Assembly: GCA_025353725.1 (NCBI GenBank)
Contig: JANXOF010000016.1
Coordinates: 62,001 to 126,000 of the forward strand
Direction: 5' to 3'
DNA length: 64,000 nucleotides
From: Polyangiaceae bacterium
GTDB lineage: Bacteria > Myxococcota_A > Polyangia > Polyangiales > Polyangiaceae
Translations under genes and position numbers: made by a program
The notes under the pieces: model-generated
The model's database searches: none
What the model was told of the DNA's origin: nothing
Seen by the model: the letters and a program-made list of their open reading frames with translations, nothing else
Shown here: positions 30,903-44,751 of the stretch, piece after piece
Numbering within the stretch: position 1 is the stretch's first letter
Layout: every line of letters begins with the position of its first letter

Positions 30903-32042
30903 CTAAGGCGGGTCAACGTACGTGACGTGCTCGCCGCGAAACGTCCGGAGAGTCGTGAGTCCATCGCCGCGTTCGACGACGTAGTCGGGTGAGAGCGGCA
31001 CCTTTCCCTTCCCTCCCGGCGTGTCGCAGATCAACTTCGGCATCGCGATTCCGGTGAGCCGACCTTGCAGCTGTTCGAGGAGTTCGACTCCTTTAGAGAG
31101 CGGTGTCCGCAGATGAGCCGTGCCGCGAACGGGGTCGGTTTGAAGCAGGTAATAAGGCCGCACGCGCGCTCGGATCAAACCACGAAATAGCGACTCCAAA
31201 ACCTCCGCGTTGTCATTTATTCCGGCCAAAAGCACGGTTTGGTTCATGACGGGAAACCCGCCGTCCGCGAGCCGCGAGCACGCCGCAACGGACTCTTTCG
31301 TAAGCTCTTTCGGATGATTAAAATGAGTCATGACCCATACGGGATGGTGTTTGCGAAGCGCCCGAACGAGCTCCGGGGTGACGCGCATCGGCAACGTTAC
31401 GGGAACGCGTGTCGCGAGCCGAATCGTCTCCACGGACGCTATCGCGCGGATGCGCCCGAGAACGCGGTCGATCCGATCCGTGCTCATCGCGAGCGGGTCG
31501 CCGCCGCTCACGATGACATCGCGAATCTCGGGATGCGCCGCGATCCACGTGAACGCGGGCTCGAGCTTCGCAAGCGAGACCGGACCGCCGCCATCGCCGA
31601 CCATACGCGAGCGCGTGCAAAATCGGCAGTACACCGCGCATTGGTCCGTTACGAGAAGGAGCACGCGGTCGGGATAGCGCCTGACCAGGTTGGGAGCGAC
31701 CTCGTGGTTCACCTCCCCGAGCGGGTCGGTCATATCGCCGGGCACCTCGCGAGCTTCGTCAATGCATGGAACGCACTGGCGCCGGACCGGGCATGTCGCA
31801 TCCTTCGAATCGCAAAGCGACAAGTAATAAGGCGTTATGGCGACCGGAAGGCCTTCGCGGTCCGCTCGACGCGCCCCTGCGAGTTCCTCGGGCGTAAGAG
31901 CGAGCACGCGTTCGAGATGCGCGACGGAACGAACGCTCGCGCGAAGCTGATCTTGCCAATCGCGAGGACCTCGCTTTCCAACCCGTATCGGCTTTGCCTC
32001 GGGCCGACGAACAAGCGAGGAAGAGGAAAGAAGTGCTGCCAT
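30903..32042 (-). CDS. KamA-family radical SAM enzyme (lysine 2,3-aminomutase-like)
   Basis: The radical-SAM cluster motif CAVYCRFC (Cys135, 139, 142) and the GGDPL loop (180-184) are present. A C-terminal region with CDTPGGKGKVPLSPDY supplies the PLP lysine (probably Lys347). The two aspartates that hold the substrate side-chain amine in clostridial lysine 2,3-aminomutase appear conserved (Asp303 in QTDPVRG and Asp340 in ICDTPGG), favouring L-lysine over glutamate as substrate. The 379-residue length lies between EpmB and full-length KamA. It would isomerise lysine to beta-lysine using SAM and PLP. It starts four bases after the parvulin gene, so the two are cotranscribed. ATG 32060 is an alternative start. 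Confidence 0.85.
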   Translation of the reverse strand: MAALLSSSSLVRRPEAKPIRVGKRGPRDWQDQLRASVRSVAHLERVLALTPEELAGARRADREGLPVAITPYYLSLCDSKDATCPVRRQCVPCIDEAREVPGDMTDPLGEVNHEVAPNLVRRYPDRVLLLVTDQCAVYCRFCTRSRMVGDGGGPVSLAKLEPAFTWIAAHPEIRDVIVSGGDPLAMSTDRIDRVLGRIRAIASVETIRLATRVPVTLPMRVTPELVRALRKHHPVWVMTHFNHPKELTKESVAACSRLADGGFPVMNQTVLLAGINDNAEVLESLFRGLIRARVRPYYLLQTDPVRGTAHLRTPLSKGVELLEQLQGRLTGIAMPKLICDTPGGKGKVPLSPDYVVERGDGLTTLRTFRGEHVTYVDPP

Positions 32043-32046
32043 TCGC

Positions 32047-33138
32047 TCAGTGCCCCGCATCCGACAGAAGCCCCATATCGACTCGAACTGTACCGAGCGC
32101 GGCTTCGTCGACTTCGACTTTGATGGACTTTCGTAGTTCAGTGACGAGCTCTTCCTCTTTCGCCCGAAGCTTGTCTTGCGCAAGCTTTACGCGAATCGAG
32201 CGCTCGGCCTCCTCGTATGACCGTTCGTGCGCTGGGATTTTTTGGGTCAGGCGAACAACGTAGAATTTGCCATTCGAAGCGACGACCCTATCCGCGATGC
32301 CGCCCAACTCAGCCACCTCGAAAGCCGCGGCCCGCACCTCGGCGGGGATGCGGGTGTTCTCGCCTCGCGCGTCCCCGGGAGGGGACACAATTCCCAGGTC
32401 GCCGGCAAGGTCAACGGGCACATTGGCCCGAGCCTGCGGGTCAATCGACTTCGCGCGCACGGCTTCGCCCCATGACGCGGCGAGTGAATTTTTTTGCGCC
32501 ATGGCAAGAGTGGCGCGAGCCGACGGCTCGTCGCGCAAAATAATCGCGGAAACACGACGACGCTCAGGGTCCTTGTAGTCTGCACGATGAGCCTCAAACC
32601 AACCGCGCACTTCGGCCTCCGGGACATCGGCTGGAGAAGGCGCATTCTTCCGAGCCTCTGCGAGCATCGCGTCGCGGAGAATCGCGCGAAGCTCCTGCTG
32701 CGCGAGGGGCTCCTTGTCATAGCCCTTTGCAAGCGCCTCCTTCGCAAGGAGCTGAACCGTAATCATTTCGTCGAGCAGTTCCTTGCGCCGCTCGGTCGAC
32801 TGGTAGCGAAGCCTGTCGAACTGGTCCATATGCTCGAGTGCGGCGGCGTAGTCTCCAAGCGTAATGGTGTCTGTCCCGACACGAGCAAGCGTTTGGGCAG
32901 CCTGCTCGGCTGTGAGCGAGCTGGGCTGCGCGTGCCCCGCGTCGTGACTTTCGGAGTCCGCGCTACCTGTCCTGTCACAGGCCTTACATCCGCTGGTGCC
33001 GATCGCGACGGCCAGCCCGAGCAAGACCGGACCTCCAAACGCACACGCGGCTGCGGTTACAGCTACTGGCGGTACGATCGACAGCGGAACGCGGAACGAA
33101 ACAGAACGACGAGACTTCACGGCGGCGAAACGTACCAC
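32047..33138 (-). CDS. SurA/PrsA-like peptidyl-prolyl isomerase lipoprotein
   Basis: From GTG 33138, preceded by AAGGGA, the protein has a long hydrophobic N-terminus and a Cys at residue 51 (GTSGCKACD), suggesting a lipoprotein or anchored periplasmic protein. A SurA-N-like helical region ([19 protein letters not shown]) precedes a parvulin-type rotamase domain (about 220-320, [21 protein letters not shown] and [22 protein letters not shown]). A helical tail follows. It would assist folding of exported proteins. A GTG at 33120 is an alternative start. It is divergent from pyrH by about 110 bases and drives into the KamA-like gene. Confidence 0.8.
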
Positions 33139-38044: not shown

Positions 38045-39211
38045 ATGACGCGCCTTCGTTGGATGACTGCTGGAGAGTCGCATGGACCACACCTTGTGGC
38101 CGTTCTTGAAGGTATCCCCGCGGGACTACCCTTACTTACCTCGGACGTCGACGAAGACCTCGGACGACGGCAGCGAGGGTACGGCAGGGGCGGACGGATG
38201 AAGATCGAAACGGATCGCGTCGAGTTTGCAGGCGGAGTGCGCGATGGTGCGACGCTCGGCTCGCCCATCGCCATGACGATCGTCAATCGAGACCATCAGA
38301 ATTGGCTCGATCGCATGGCGCCCGGCCCGCTCCCGTCGCGGCCGGATGCGCTCACGCGGCCTCGGCCCGGGCACGCCGATCTAGCGGGAGGGCTAAAGTA
38401 TGACCGCCACGACCTTCGCGACATTTTGGAGCGTGCGAGCGCCCGGGAGACCGCCGCTCGGACGGCTGTAGGGGCTGTGGCAAAGAAGCTGCTTGGGGCC
38501 GTTGGTATAGAGGTCTTCGCCCACGTGGTCGCCGTGGGCGACGTTCAAGCAAAGCCGATCCACGTTAGCCCTTCCGACCTGCGGGCTAGAGCTCGAGCTT
38601 CGGACCTTGCCTGCGTCGATCCCGAAGCGGAAGTGCAGATGAAGGACGCGATTCGGGAGGCCGCCCACGCGGGCGACACCCTCGGGGGCGTTTTCGAGGT
38701 GCTCGCAGTCGGTGTACCACCGGGACTTGGCGCACACGTGCAATGGGACCGGAAGCTCGACGGGAGACTCGCCCAAGCCCTTATGAGCATCCAGGCCATA
38801 AAGGCCGTGGAAATCGGCGACGGCTTCCGCGCCGCGGCGTCTCGCGGTTCGACCGTCCATGACGCGATTTTCTACGACGCCGCGACCCATCGATTCAAGC
38901 GGTCGACCAACCGAGCGGGAGGACTCGAAGGCGGTATGACCAATGGCGAAGTCCTGGTGTGTCGCGCGGCCATGAAACCGATTGCCACCCTCAAAAAGGC
39001 GCTCCAGAGCGTCGATATTCGCACGAAGGAGCCGTTCGACGCAGCCCACGAGCGGAGCGACATTTGCGCGGTCGCTGCGGCCTCGGTTGTCGGGGAGGCA
39101 ATGGTAGCGATTACGCTTTGTGAAGCCTTGCTCGAGAAGTTCGGCGGCGATTCTCTCGCGGAGCTTCGACGAAACGTCGCGGGTTACGCCGCTCAGAACG
39201 AAGCTTTTTAG
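38045..39211 (+). CDS. aroC: Chorismate synthase
   Basis: AroC converts 5-enolpyruvylshikimate-3-phosphate to chorismate with reduced FMN. The 388-residue protein has the signatures [63 protein letters not shown], the central [16 protein letters not shown], and [19 protein letters not shown]. The stop overlaps the start of the aroK-aroB fusion (TAGTG), so the last step and two earlier steps of the shikimate pathway are coordinately expressed. Confidence 0.97.
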
Positions 39212-40806
39212 TGGGGTCTGATGGGCGTTGGTCACGCCCCCTCGTGCTGAGCGGGTTCATGGCGACAGGGAAGAGCACGATCGGAGCGCGCATCGCAGCT
39301 GGCGTCGGCGTTCCGTTCCTCGACACGGACGCCCTTTTGGCCCAACGAAGCGGAAAGTCTATCGGAGAACTCTTTGCCTCGGATGGAGAGGCGAGGTTTC
39401 GGGAGCGTGAAGCGGAGCTCGTCCTGCCCATGTTGTCCGATCTGTCGCCCCGAGTGATAGCGCTCGGAGGTGGGACGGTCACGATGCCTCGCGTAAGGCA
39501 CGCACTGCTCGAGCGCTGTACTTTAGTCACCCTGACAGCCGCGCCGGAGACCGTCGTGGCGCGTGTTTCTTCGCTGCGAAAACGCCCAAACTTGTGGGCC
39601 TTGTCGCCACTCGATCGCGCGCGTGACCTCCTCTCGGTTCGCCACAGCGCCTATGCGGAGAGTCACGCGCTCGTTGCGACGGAGGGCCAAACGCCGAAGC
39701 AAATTGCGGAGCGCGTGATCGACGTCGCCGGGCTGGACACCCTGGTCATGCCACTCGGTACGAGGTCGTACGTTGTCGAACTCGCAAATGATGAGCCCTC
39801 ACGGCTCGCGGCCGCGCTCGCGGAGCTGAACCCGTCTTCGCTTCTCGTCGTCACGGATCAAAACGTCGTCGCAGCGCGTGCCCAATGGCTTGATGCGGCG
39901 TTGGAGGGTGTGGGCGTTGCGAGACACACAGTGGTGATAAAGGCTGGCGAGGTCAGCAAGACACTCGCGACCGTCGCCCGAATTTGGGATGAGGCGCTCT
40001 TGCATGGGCTTGACCGCGACGCCGTGGTCCTTGCGTTCGGCGGCGGGGTCGTGGGCGATTTGGCTGGCTTCGCGGCTTCCACGCTGCTTCGCGGGATCCG
40101 TTGCGTGCAGGTTCCGACCAGCCTTTTGGCGATGGTCGATTCCTCGGTCGGCGGCAAAACAGGTTTCGACCACGCTGCAGGGAAAAACCTGATCGGCTCT
40201 TTTTTTCAGCCAAACCGAGTTGTGGTCGATGTGGAGCACCTTTCGACACTCCCGAAGCGAGAGCGCGCAGCCGGCTTAGCCGAGGTCGTAAAGATCGCGT
40301 TGGTTCGGAGCGTCGATGTCCTTGAGCAGCTTGAGGCCGCCGCGGAGGCTATCGCGTGTGGCGACCGTGCGGCCCTGCGCTCTGTCGTGAGGTCAGCCAT
40401 CGCTTTAAAGATCAATCTCGTACGCGACGATGAGAGAGAAAATGGGTCCCGAGCGCTCCTCAACTTGGGGCACACGGTCGGCCATGCACTCGAGTCTCAA
40501 GGCGAGTACACGCGGCTGCTTCACGGCGAGGCGGTTGCGATTGGCACGTGCGTCGAGCTTGCGGCTACGGAGCGGATGGGGCTTTCAGCCCCGGGTTTGG
40601 CGGCACGCGCAAGGTTGCTCTTCGAGCGACTCGGACTGCCAACGAAGGCGTCGCCTGACGAACTTGGCAGCGCTTGGCCCTTCGTACTCTCGGACAAGAA
40701 GCGGTCCGTCGCCGGGCTAAAGCTTCCCGTCGTCACGACCGCTGGACACGGCGCAGTGGTGCGCGTGACCGTTGAGCACCTGCGGCGCGCAGTCCTGCTC
40801 TCGTGA
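39211..40806 (+). CDS. aroKB: Fused shikimate kinase / 3-dehydroquinate synthase
   Basis: The 531-residue protein joins two shikimate-pathway enzymes. Residues about 10-170 are shikimate kinase, with P-loop GFMATGKSTIG, shikimate-binding DTDALLAQRSGKSI, and ALGGGTV. Residues about 185-525 are 3-dehydroquinate synthase, with NAD-binding GGGVVGDLAGFAAST, VPTSLLAMVDSSVGGKTGFD, KNLIGSFFQP, AEVVKIALV and the zinc-ligand segment LNLGHTVGHALES plus LHGEAVAIG. Thus steps 2 and 5 of the pathway sit in one chain, immediately after aroC (step 7). GTG 39211 overlaps the aroC stop. Confidence 0.94.
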   Translation: MGSDGRWSRPLVLSGFMATGKSTIGARIAAGVGVPFLDTDALLAQRSGKSIGELFASDGEARFREREAELVLPMLSDLSPRVIALGGGTVTMPRVRHALLERCTLVTLTAAPETVVARVSSLRKRPNLWALSPLDRARDLLSVRHSAYAESHALVATEGQTPKQIAERVIDVAGLDTLVMPLGTRSYVVELANDEPSRLAAALAELNPSSLLVVTDQNVVAARAQWLDAALEGVGVARHTVVIKAGEVSKTLATVARIWDEALLHGLDRDAVVLAFGGGVVGDLAGFAASTLLRGIRCVQVPTSLLAMVDSSVGGKTGFDHAAGKNLIGSFFQPNRVVVDVEHLSTLPKRERAAGLAEVVKIALVRSVDVLEQLEAAAEAIACGDRAALRSVVRSAIALKINLVRDDERENGSRALLNLGHTVGHALESQGEYTRLLHGEAVAIGTCVELAATERMGLSAPGLAARARLLFERLGLPTKASPDELGSAWPFVLSDKKRSVAGLKLPVVTTAGHGAVVRVTVEHLRRAVLLS

Positions 40807-42397: not shown

Positions 42398-42491
42398 GAC
42401 ACAAGCTTCCGTGCCAAGACCCGAGCAAAGGTATCGCGTCATGGCTGACCGACCCTCGGGTGTCGTCGAGCACTGTGGTAGCGTCTCTTCG

Positions 42492-42794
42492 ATGGGCAAG
42501 CAGCCAATTTCGCTCGTGATCGGTGGCGACACCGTGCGGGTGCTGAGTTCTGCGAGTGAGGGCGAGCTCCAGGAGCTTGCTGCCGTCGTAGGTGCCAAGG
42601 TCGCCGCGCTGTCTCCGAAGGGTCGACCGCCACCGCCCCAAGCTGTCTTCCTTGCAGCCATCGCTCTTGCTGAGGAGTTAGCTGTCGAGCGCGAGCGGCG
42701 ACTCGCGCTTGAACGCAAGACGCGCGACCTGCTCCGCAGGGTACTCGTGCGCGTGGAAGACGCACTCGACAGCCAAGACCCGGAACCAACTTAG
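42492..42794 (+). CDS. zapA: ZapA-like cell division protein
   Basis: ATG 42492 gives a 100-residue protein with the ZapA layout. A small N-terminal domain (ISLVIGGDTVRVLSSASEGELQELAAVV) is followed by a long C-terminal helix (FLAAIALAEELAVERERRLALERKTRDLLRRV) that forms the coiled-coil tetramer. ZapA bundles FtsZ filaments at the division ring. Start codons further upstream add unconserved sequence. bioF follows 83 bases later with a parS-type palindrome in between. Confidence 0.8.
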   Translation: MGKQPISLVIGGDTVRVLSSASEGELQELAAVVGAKVAALSPKGRPPPPQAVFLAAIALAEELAVERERRLALERKTRDLLRRVLVRVEDALDSQDPEPT

Positions 42795-42861: not shown

Positions 42862-42877
42862 TGTTTCACGTGAAACA
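42862..42877. other. parS-type ParB-binding palindrome
   Basis: The 16-base sequence TGTTTCACGTGAAACA is a perfect palindrome identical to the bacterial parS consensus bound by ParB for chromosome segregation. It ends one base before the bioF ATG. parS sites cluster near replication origins, which fits the dnaN-recF-gyrB genes about 8-13 kb away. parA and parB are not in the window. Confidence 0.92.
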
Positions 42878-44050
42878 ATGACGAGCGCGTTTTCACATTT
42901 CGAAGCTCTGCTAGCCGCGCGCCAGGAACGCGGCTTACTTAGACGGCCAACGCCGAATCTTCGAGAGGGCGAACTTTCCTTCTGTTCGAACGATTTTCTT
43001 GGGCTCGGGATGGCGCCATCGCCATCAAATCGGTCGGGGTCGGGGAGCTCGCGGCTCGTGGCTGGCGACCATGAGGAGCATCAAAACCTCGAACTAGCCT
43101 TCGCAGATTGGCTGGGCCTGGAATCGGCCCTGGCCTTCACAAGTGGGTATGCGGCCAACGTCGGAGCTCTCTCGTGCCTGGCACAGCCAACCGACCTCAT
43201 CATTAGCGACCAATTCAACCACGCGTCGCTAATCGACGGTATGCGCCTGTCGCGAGCGAGAACAAAGGTGGTGGATCACGGCAACATGGCCCAGATCGAC
43301 GTAGCGCTTCGCGAACGTGCTGAACGAAGGGCCTGGGTGGTAGTCGAGAGCTACTACAGCATGGATGCAGACGGGCCAGACCTGATGTACCTGAGGGGCC
43401 TCTGCGACGCGCATGAGGCATCGCTCTACGTGGACGAAGCACATGCCCTTGGCGTGATGGGGCCAGACGGCCGGGGTCGATGCGCCGCTGCGGGCGTCGT
43501 CGCGGACGTTCTTGTCGGTACCCTAGGAAAGGCCTTTGGCTCGCAAGGCGCATTTGTCGCGGGGCAATCCGTCCTTCGTGATTGGCTTTGGAACAACGCA
43601 AGATCCTTTATCTATTCTACGGGCCTAGCGCCCTCGAGCGCCTCCGCAGCCATCCGCTCTCTCTGCCACGTCCAAAAGCACCCCGAGCTGGCAGTGAGGC
43701 TTGCGGCACTCGCCGAACGACTAAGGACAGGCCTCGTGCAGGTGGGTGCCCGAACCCAACCGCGCAGCGCTTGGGGACTCGAGCTGGCCGACACCCAACC
43801 CCTTGTCCTAGGTTTCGGGCACATCGTGCCTGTCGTCCTGGGCGAGGCGGCGCGGGCAATCGCCTTTTCAAGGCATCTTCGGGAGCATGGGCTGCACGTG
43901 CAGGCAATAAGGCCACCTACCGTACCGGAAGGCCTCTCAAGGCTAAGAATGACAGTGTCGGCACTTCACCAAGAGGGCGACATCGATAGGCTCGTCGACG
44001 GCTTCGCGTCCGCTCTGCGGGCGGACCTAACAAGGGGGACCTCAACGTGA
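42878..44050 (+). CDS. bioF: 8-amino-7-oxononanoate synthase
   Basis: BioF condenses pimeloyl-ACP/CoA with alanine using PLP in biotin synthesis. The 390-residue enzyme has FCSNDFLGLG, the GSGSSRLVAGDHEEHQNLE segment, FTSGYAANVGALSCL, VESYYSMDADGP, the PLP-phosphate/Asp segment VDEAHALGVMG and the Schiff-base lysine in VGTLGKAFGSQG. ATG 42878 follows the parS palindrome directly, so the ribosome-binding region coincides with a ParB site. The frame is also open upstream, but the encoded residues are the palindrome itself. The stop overlaps bioD by four bases. Confidence 0.93.
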   Translation: MTSAFSHFEALLAARQERGLLRRPTPNLREGELSFCSNDFLGLGMAPSPSNRSGSGSSRLVAGDHEEHQNLELAFADWLGLESALAFTSGYAANVGALSCLAQPTDLIISDQFNHASLIDGMRLSRARTKVVDHGNMAQIDVALRERAERRAWVVVESYYSMDADGPDLMYLRGLCDAHEASLYVDEAHALGVMGPDGRGRCAAAGVVADVLVGTLGKAFGSQGAFVAGQSVLRDWLWNNARSFIYSTGLAPSSASAAIRSLCHVQKHPELAVRLAALAERLRTGLVQVGARTQPRSAWGLELADTQPLVLGFGHIVPVVLGEAARAIAFSRHLREHGLHVQAIRPPTVPEGLSRLRMTVSALHQEGDIDRLVDGFASALRADLTRGTST

Positions 44051-44751
44051 ACGCGCCCATGGCAGTAGTCACCGGCACCGGAACCGAGATCGGAAAAACG
44101 CACTTCACTCAGGCTCTGCTGCGTGCTTGGGCACGCGCGCTGAGCGCCACCGGCCTTCACGACCCGTACGTACTCGGAATCAAACCCGTCGAGAGCGGCG
44201 TCGCTTCAAGCTCAAAATCAGACGCCGAGATGCTCCAGGAGGCCTCGACGTTTCACGTGAAACATCGTCCACCGCCTTACCGCTTGACGCGAGCGGTATC
44301 GCCGCACCTAGCAGCAAGAGAGCAAGGGACCCGGATCGACGCTGCCTGCATTGTCCAATACGTTCGGGAATGTCAAAACCAAGTCCACGGACTCGCCGTC
44401 GAACTCGCGGGGGGCTTATTTAGTCCGCTTGGACCCGCGCTATCCAACGCAGACATCGCAGGCCTCCTGCGTCCGACCGCTCTGTTTCTCGTCGCGCCCG
44501 ACCGATTAGGCGTACTCCACGAAGTCGGAGCCACAACGCGCGCCGCTCTCGCTGCTGGCCTCACCATTGATGGCATCCTCCTCGTCGCGCCAGAGACCGC
44601 GGATGCCTCGACGGGGAGCAACGCCGCAGAACTTCACTACGTAACGGAGGTCCCCGTAATGGCGACCGTCCAAAGGGCCACCGTCCAAGCATGCTCCCTG
44701 CTCGAAGGCGTCGCGCGCATCGCCACGCGCCTGGTAAACCTTCCTAGGTAG
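44047..44751 (+). CDS. bioD: Dethiobiotin synthetase
   Basis: BioD closes the ureido ring of dethiobiotin using ATP and CO2. The 234-residue protein has the P-loop GTGTEIGKTHFTQALL, the substrate lysine in GIKPVESGV, the ELAGGLFSPL motif (family consensus ExAGG), and the nucleotide-binding C-terminal half. GTG 44047 overlaps the bioF stop (GTGA). A second parS-type palindrome lies inside the gene and encodes TFHVKH. Its last eight bases overlap the convergent ABC ATPase gene. bioA and bioB are not nearby. Confidence 0.92.
   Translation: MNAPMAVVTGTGTEIGKTHFTQALLRAWARALSATGLHDPYVLGIKPVESGVASSSKSDAEMLQEASTFHVKHRPPPYRLTRAVSPHLAAREQGTRIDAACIVQYVRECQNQVHGLAVELAGGLFSPLGPALSNADIAGLLRPTALFLVAPDRLGVLHEVGATTRAALAAGLTIDGILLVAPETADASTGSNAAELHYVTEVPVMATVQRATVQACSLLEGVARIATRLVNLPR
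44249..44264. other. Second parS-type palindrome, inside bioD
   Basis: CGTTTCACGTGAAACA matches the 16-base parS consensus at 15 positions, and its 14-base core GTTTCACGTGAAAC is a perfect palindrome. It lies within the bioD coding sequence, 1.39 kb from the first site. Two such matches so close together are very unlikely by chance and indicate a ParB loading zone. Confidence 0.9.

Follow-up and report, generated by a model that had tools for sequence, protein, structure and literature searches.

Two parS-type palindromes in the biotin genes bioF and bioD of a Polyangiaceae bacterium probably form its chromosomal centromere, a reading to which we give a probability of about 0.85. They lie in a 64,000-nucleotide stretch of contig C92 of the draft assembly, referred to here as the window. 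In this reading, the palindromes are predicted loading sites for the partition protein ParB near the replication origin; the bioF-bioD operon houses them, the order as a whole has inherited the arrangement, and a distant parAB operon serves them in trans. The identity of the sites as parS, their uniqueness, the conservation of their place and codons, and their separation from parAB are read directly from the DNA.

The window contains two exact copies of the palindrome GTTTCACGTGAAAC, at 42863–42876 and 44250–44263, so that both sites fit the parS consensus; with flanks they read TGTTTCACGTGAAACA and CGTTTCACGTGAAACA (Table 1). The first ends one base ahead of the bioF ATG and fills the usual Shine-Dalgarno position. 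An earlier note on this DNA had placed one palindrome at the bioF ribosome-binding region and the other inside bioD, and the coordinates bear out both. Across the whole assembly (6,617,554 bp, 98 contigs, 97.6% complete) there is no further exact GTTTCACGTGAAAC, and these are the sole matches at two or fewer mismatches to the 16-mer. The remaining matches all carry three mismatches and stand at control level (13 vs 18 in a reversed control). The even scatter over the genome that the earlier note had named as contrary evidence is therefore absent. From base composition, the number of exact 14-mers expected is 1e-4 per window and 0.011 per genome. The sites are 1.4 kb apart, few and clustered, as expected of chromosomal parS, and the genome encodes both ParA and ParB.

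The second site is conserved to the level of codons. Among 21 BioD proteins, 14 carry parS or a one-base variant at the same alignment column and in the same reading phase, coding for FHVK or FHVT. This column falls in a stretch of variable length flanked by the KPVESG and SPHLAA segments, as aligned to E. coli BioD (1dts/1a82). All 11 genomes whose site is exact keep the codons TTT CAC GTG AAA, even though most of these genes favour synonyms over TTT and AAA. A naive product of the synonymous frequencies comes to ~1e-20, a value that is overstated since the genomes are related and the codon sample is small. The 14 bases of the embedded site persist among proteins ~39–59% identical to the BioD of the window; the sites themselves are therefore constrained. 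A parS within BioD offers a clear natural case of DNA selected as centromere and protein code together, and its fixed position would let selection on a bacterial centromere be measured from codons.

In one clade (G002, G003 and G006; support 99/97), GTTTCACGTGACAC stands in the same orientation at both sites, the one at the bioF start and the one in BioD. This shared asymmetric one-base variant (loci L103–L105) gives the impression of concerted change in the two copies. A changed ParB specificity was considered as its cause, and the ParB helix-turn-helix region showed no clear change.

Exact parS is present in 27 of 37 relatives, with one to four copies per genome grouped within a few kb; the exception is G019, whose two exact sites are on separate contigs. 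We compared neighbourhoods by an all-against-all open reading frame search together with bioF and bioD searches. In 30 of 38 close genomes, a count that includes near-match sites where exact parS is lacking, parS lies within ~5 kb of bioF or bioD. A further 27 genomes, outside the data behind the idea, were then searched for parS and a BioF orthologue as a held-out test. The two lie within ~4 kb on one contig in 21 of these: the source order contributes 16 of its 17 genomes, and the rest of the class 5 of 10. At 22 parS loci from beyond the class, neither bioF nor bioD was found within ~1.5 kb. A GTTNCACGTGNAAC search of genomes without exact parS returned variants in G023, G027, G028 and G036. 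In G027 and G036 (L110/L111), two overlapping degenerate parS-like palindromes stand 65–80 nt upstream of bioF, for example TGTTTCACGTGCAACG followed by CGTTGCACGTGGAACG.

The site is likewise at the bioF start in G001, G004, G007–G011 and G020, and as a variant in G002, G003 and G006. Among genera its position relative to bioF differs: it may stand downstream of the gene, ahead of it, at its start or within its 5′ end. This variation argues for conservation of closeness to the origin rather than of an operator position. It is somewhat probable that parS and bioFD are neighbours only through a shared ancestral location at the origin, as a by-product of slow rearrangement with no bearing on the biotin genes. 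This explanation is compatible with a centromere and concerns why the place is conserved. Much of the flanking order (aroC-aroKB-zapA-bioFD-moxR-DUF58) is also kept within the family, and the bioF/parS region lies 7–16 kb from dnaA in G027, G034 and G036, as a by-product would predict. However, the neighbourhood switches between families, with dnaJ-uppS-cdsA-gdh in several and aroC-aroKB-zapA plus moxR-DUF58-transglutaminase in the source family, and parS remains with bioF. The constraint on the BioD site likewise tells against a mere by-product. In several families of order-level relatives (L101, L100, L074 and others), a protein of ~800 amino acids with HEAT repeats and a cyclophilin-type peptidyl-prolyl isomerase domain repeatedly adjoins or overlaps parS.

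GC skew and the polarity of a motif resembling the FtsK-orienting polar sequences (KOPS) support a position of the sites near the replication origin, as both reverse close to parS in this genome and in a congener. The cumulative GC-skew minimum of C92 is at 116,727, 11 kb from parS, and that of the congener G005 is likewise 11 kb away. The window coordinates of the skew turns in Table 1 are C92 positions 116,727 and 123,048 minus 62,000. The E. coli FtsK-orienting motif GGGNAGGG was chosen in advance as the KOPS-like polarity proxy, and it is directed away from parS on either side (left, 10 forward and 27 reverse; right, 26 and 8; p=4e-5). In the complete genome G035, GC skew (41 samples) was too noisy to locate the origin, and polarity was used instead. 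There the orientation of GGGNAGGG defines two arcs of the chromosome (score 58 with 80 sites; 0 of 500 shuffles as good). The switches fall at 9.887–9.906 Mb and between ~4.52 and 4.75 Mb. The parS of this genome (9.936 Mb) is 30–49 kb from the origin-type switch, with dnaA (9.822 Mb) 65–85 kb away on the other side, and parB (4.297 Mb) lies 0.2–0.5 Mb from the terminus-type switch. In G025, with dnaA at 253 kb and parS at 327 kb, a switch falls between the two at ~300 kb (p=0.004 for a cut chosen after inspection); three DnaA boxes stand beside its dnaA.

Several points weigh against this placement and against the centromere as a whole. The best KOPS-like switch points are 7–12 kb and 25 kb from parS, with the GC minima 11 kb away on the opposite side. 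The origin position here is an estimate from skews in draft contigs, and the two congeners are not independent. Searches for DnaA-box clusters near parS, strict and with one mismatch, found none on C92 or in G005, and the GTTNCACGTGNAAC search gave no recognisable parS in the relatives G015, G030 and G032.

The genome has a single parB (C2:45233–45751; TIGR00180, E=2.3e-51) with parA adjoining, folD as neighbour and tig-clpP-clpX further out; the parA-parB arrangement recurs throughout the order, often with folD. The earlier note had asked where parA and parB lie relative to this locus. They are present on a different contig: in the draft, parB (C2), dnaA (C5) and parS (C92:104863) occupy three contigs, and the minimum separations from parS are at least ~114 kb for parB and at least ~105 kb for dnaA. 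Among the first 38 genomes, parB shares the parS contig only in the single-contig G035 (10.33 Mb), where the two are ~4.7 Mb apart. In the near-complete G252, a member of the same family (13.3 Mb, two contigs), parS lies at 12.902–12.908 Mb, parB at 8.383 Mb and dnaA at 11.651 Mb, placing parB and parS ~4.5 Mb apart. On that contig (C1), dnaA is 1.25 Mb from parS and may not mark the origin. The origin-near ParB loading zone proposed in the earlier note thus holds in its parS sequence, uniqueness, clustering, conservation and origin nearness by skew and polarity, but the zone is remote from parAB and does not adjoin dnaA in the family.

A review counts origin proximity of the par operon among the conserved features of chromosomal partition (PMC7022226); this trait, usual though not obligatory in ParABS, is absent here. 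In this order several megabases separate parAB from parS, and one complete genome has parAB close to the terminus; linkage is therefore not required. What usually keeps the two linked, be it history, local concentration or the timing of expression, can thus be put to the test.

For ParABS systems generally, ParB loading at parS, sliding, condensation of the origin and ParA-driven movement are established, and intragenic parS sites are also already known. The arrangement described here needs no new biochemistry, being an ordinary mechanism in an unusual layout. We infer ParB binding and a segregation function for the two sites as follows. ParB made from the single distant parAB operon next to folD would act in trans and load at both sites, and its clamps would slide and spread, condensing the origin region, after which ParA would pull sister origins apart. 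With one site abutting the bioF start codon and the other within a variable BioD coding segment, the same DNA would serve as protein code and centromere. In the open-access papers searched, we did not find order-wide residence of parS in bioF/bioD, its codon-level conservation in BioD or a par operon near the terminus.

An effect of ParB spreading on biotin-gene expression, which the earlier note had put forward as a possibility, is chiefly plausible for the bioF-start site. It is doubtful that ParB occupancy there represses or times bioF and thereby links biotin synthesis with the replication and segregation of the origin. The site takes the place of the Shine-Dalgarno region, and in P. aeruginosa the intergenic parS3 and parS4 repress adjacent genes, whereas the intragenic parS1 and parS2 do not (PMC5521831). 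Such coupling is harder to reconcile with the shifting position of parS relative to bioF between genera, and genes beside parS in B. subtilis are unchanged upon loss of Spo0J (PMC7022226). We consider unlikely the fuller proposition that the order has a dual-coded centromere built into the biotin operon at fixed BioD codons, that parAB has moved far off, and that ParB occupancy at the bioF start couples biotin synthesis to those origin events.

It is very improbable that the palindromes are E-box-like (CACGTG) operators of a biotin-pathway transcription factor controlling bioF and bioD, with a coincidental likeness to parS: both sites are in the bio operon and many relatives have the first at the start of bioF, but the sequence is the parS consensus in a genome that encodes ParB and has no further parS, one site is inside bioD rather than upstream of the bio genes, and we set this explanation aside since such sites are also seen at a distance from bio genes, at the DUF58/transglutaminase junction in G022, beside dnaJ-uppS in G024 and G026, and in other classes of the phylum with neither bioF nor bioD nearby.

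As a probable centromere, the pair of sites can be compared with known ParABS systems. M. xanthus, a relative at the level of the phylum, similarly has one ParA, one ParB and, judged by sequence, origin-proximal parS (PMC3899335, PMC3778016). Its 22–24 parS sites (consensus TGTTCCACGTGGAACG) form a 3-kb cluster ~4 kb upstream of parA and 30–35 kb from ori (PMC3899335, PMC3778016), whereas here two TGTTTCACGTGAAACA-type sites reside in bioF/bioD and parAB is unlinked. Few parS near the origin are typical of chromosomal ParAB-parS systems; the distance of parB from parS in G035 and G252 is not, as the par operon is usually origin-near (PMC7022226). The small origin-proximal cluster of intragenic and intergenic sites resembles parS1–parS4 of P. 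aeruginosa (PMC5521831). There, intergenic sites repress their neighbours; here the host genes are bioF and bioD.

Table 1 Predicted parS sites, their host genes and nearby features, in window coordinates
Feature	Position	Strand	Remarks
parS site 1	42862–42877	.	TGTTTCACGTGAAACA; perfect 16-bp palindrome immediately 5′ of the bioF start codon
parS site 2	44249–44264	.	CGTTTCACGTGAAACA; within bioD, codes for FHVK (residues 69–72)
bioF, 8-amino-7-oxononanoate synthase-like	42878–44050	+	NCBIfam TIGR00858 best match, E=1.4e-103, below curated cut-off; Pfam Aminotran_1_2
bioD, dethiobiotin synthase	44047–44751	+	Holds parS site 2; NCBIfam TIGR00347 above cut-off; matches E. coli BioD structures
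zapA-like gene 5′ of bioF	42411–42794	+	Pfam ZapA E=8e-6 on 42492–42791; syntenic in relatives, within the conserved neighbourhood
Points where cumulative GC skew (54,727) and T-A skew (61,048) turn, contig C92	54727–61048	.	11–18 kb from parS; approximate origin region only

The exact specificity of the bioF product is likely rather than certain, since its score is below the TIGR00858 curated cut-off. Elsewhere in the window, a fused shikimate kinase/3-dehydroquinate synthase (AroK-AroB, 531 amino acids) follows aroC at 39211–40806, its AroB part scoring above the curated cut-off. A KamA-family (lysine 2,3-aminomutase-like) radical SAM protein is encoded on the minus strand at 30903–32183, above the subfamily cut-off and below all equivalog cut-offs.
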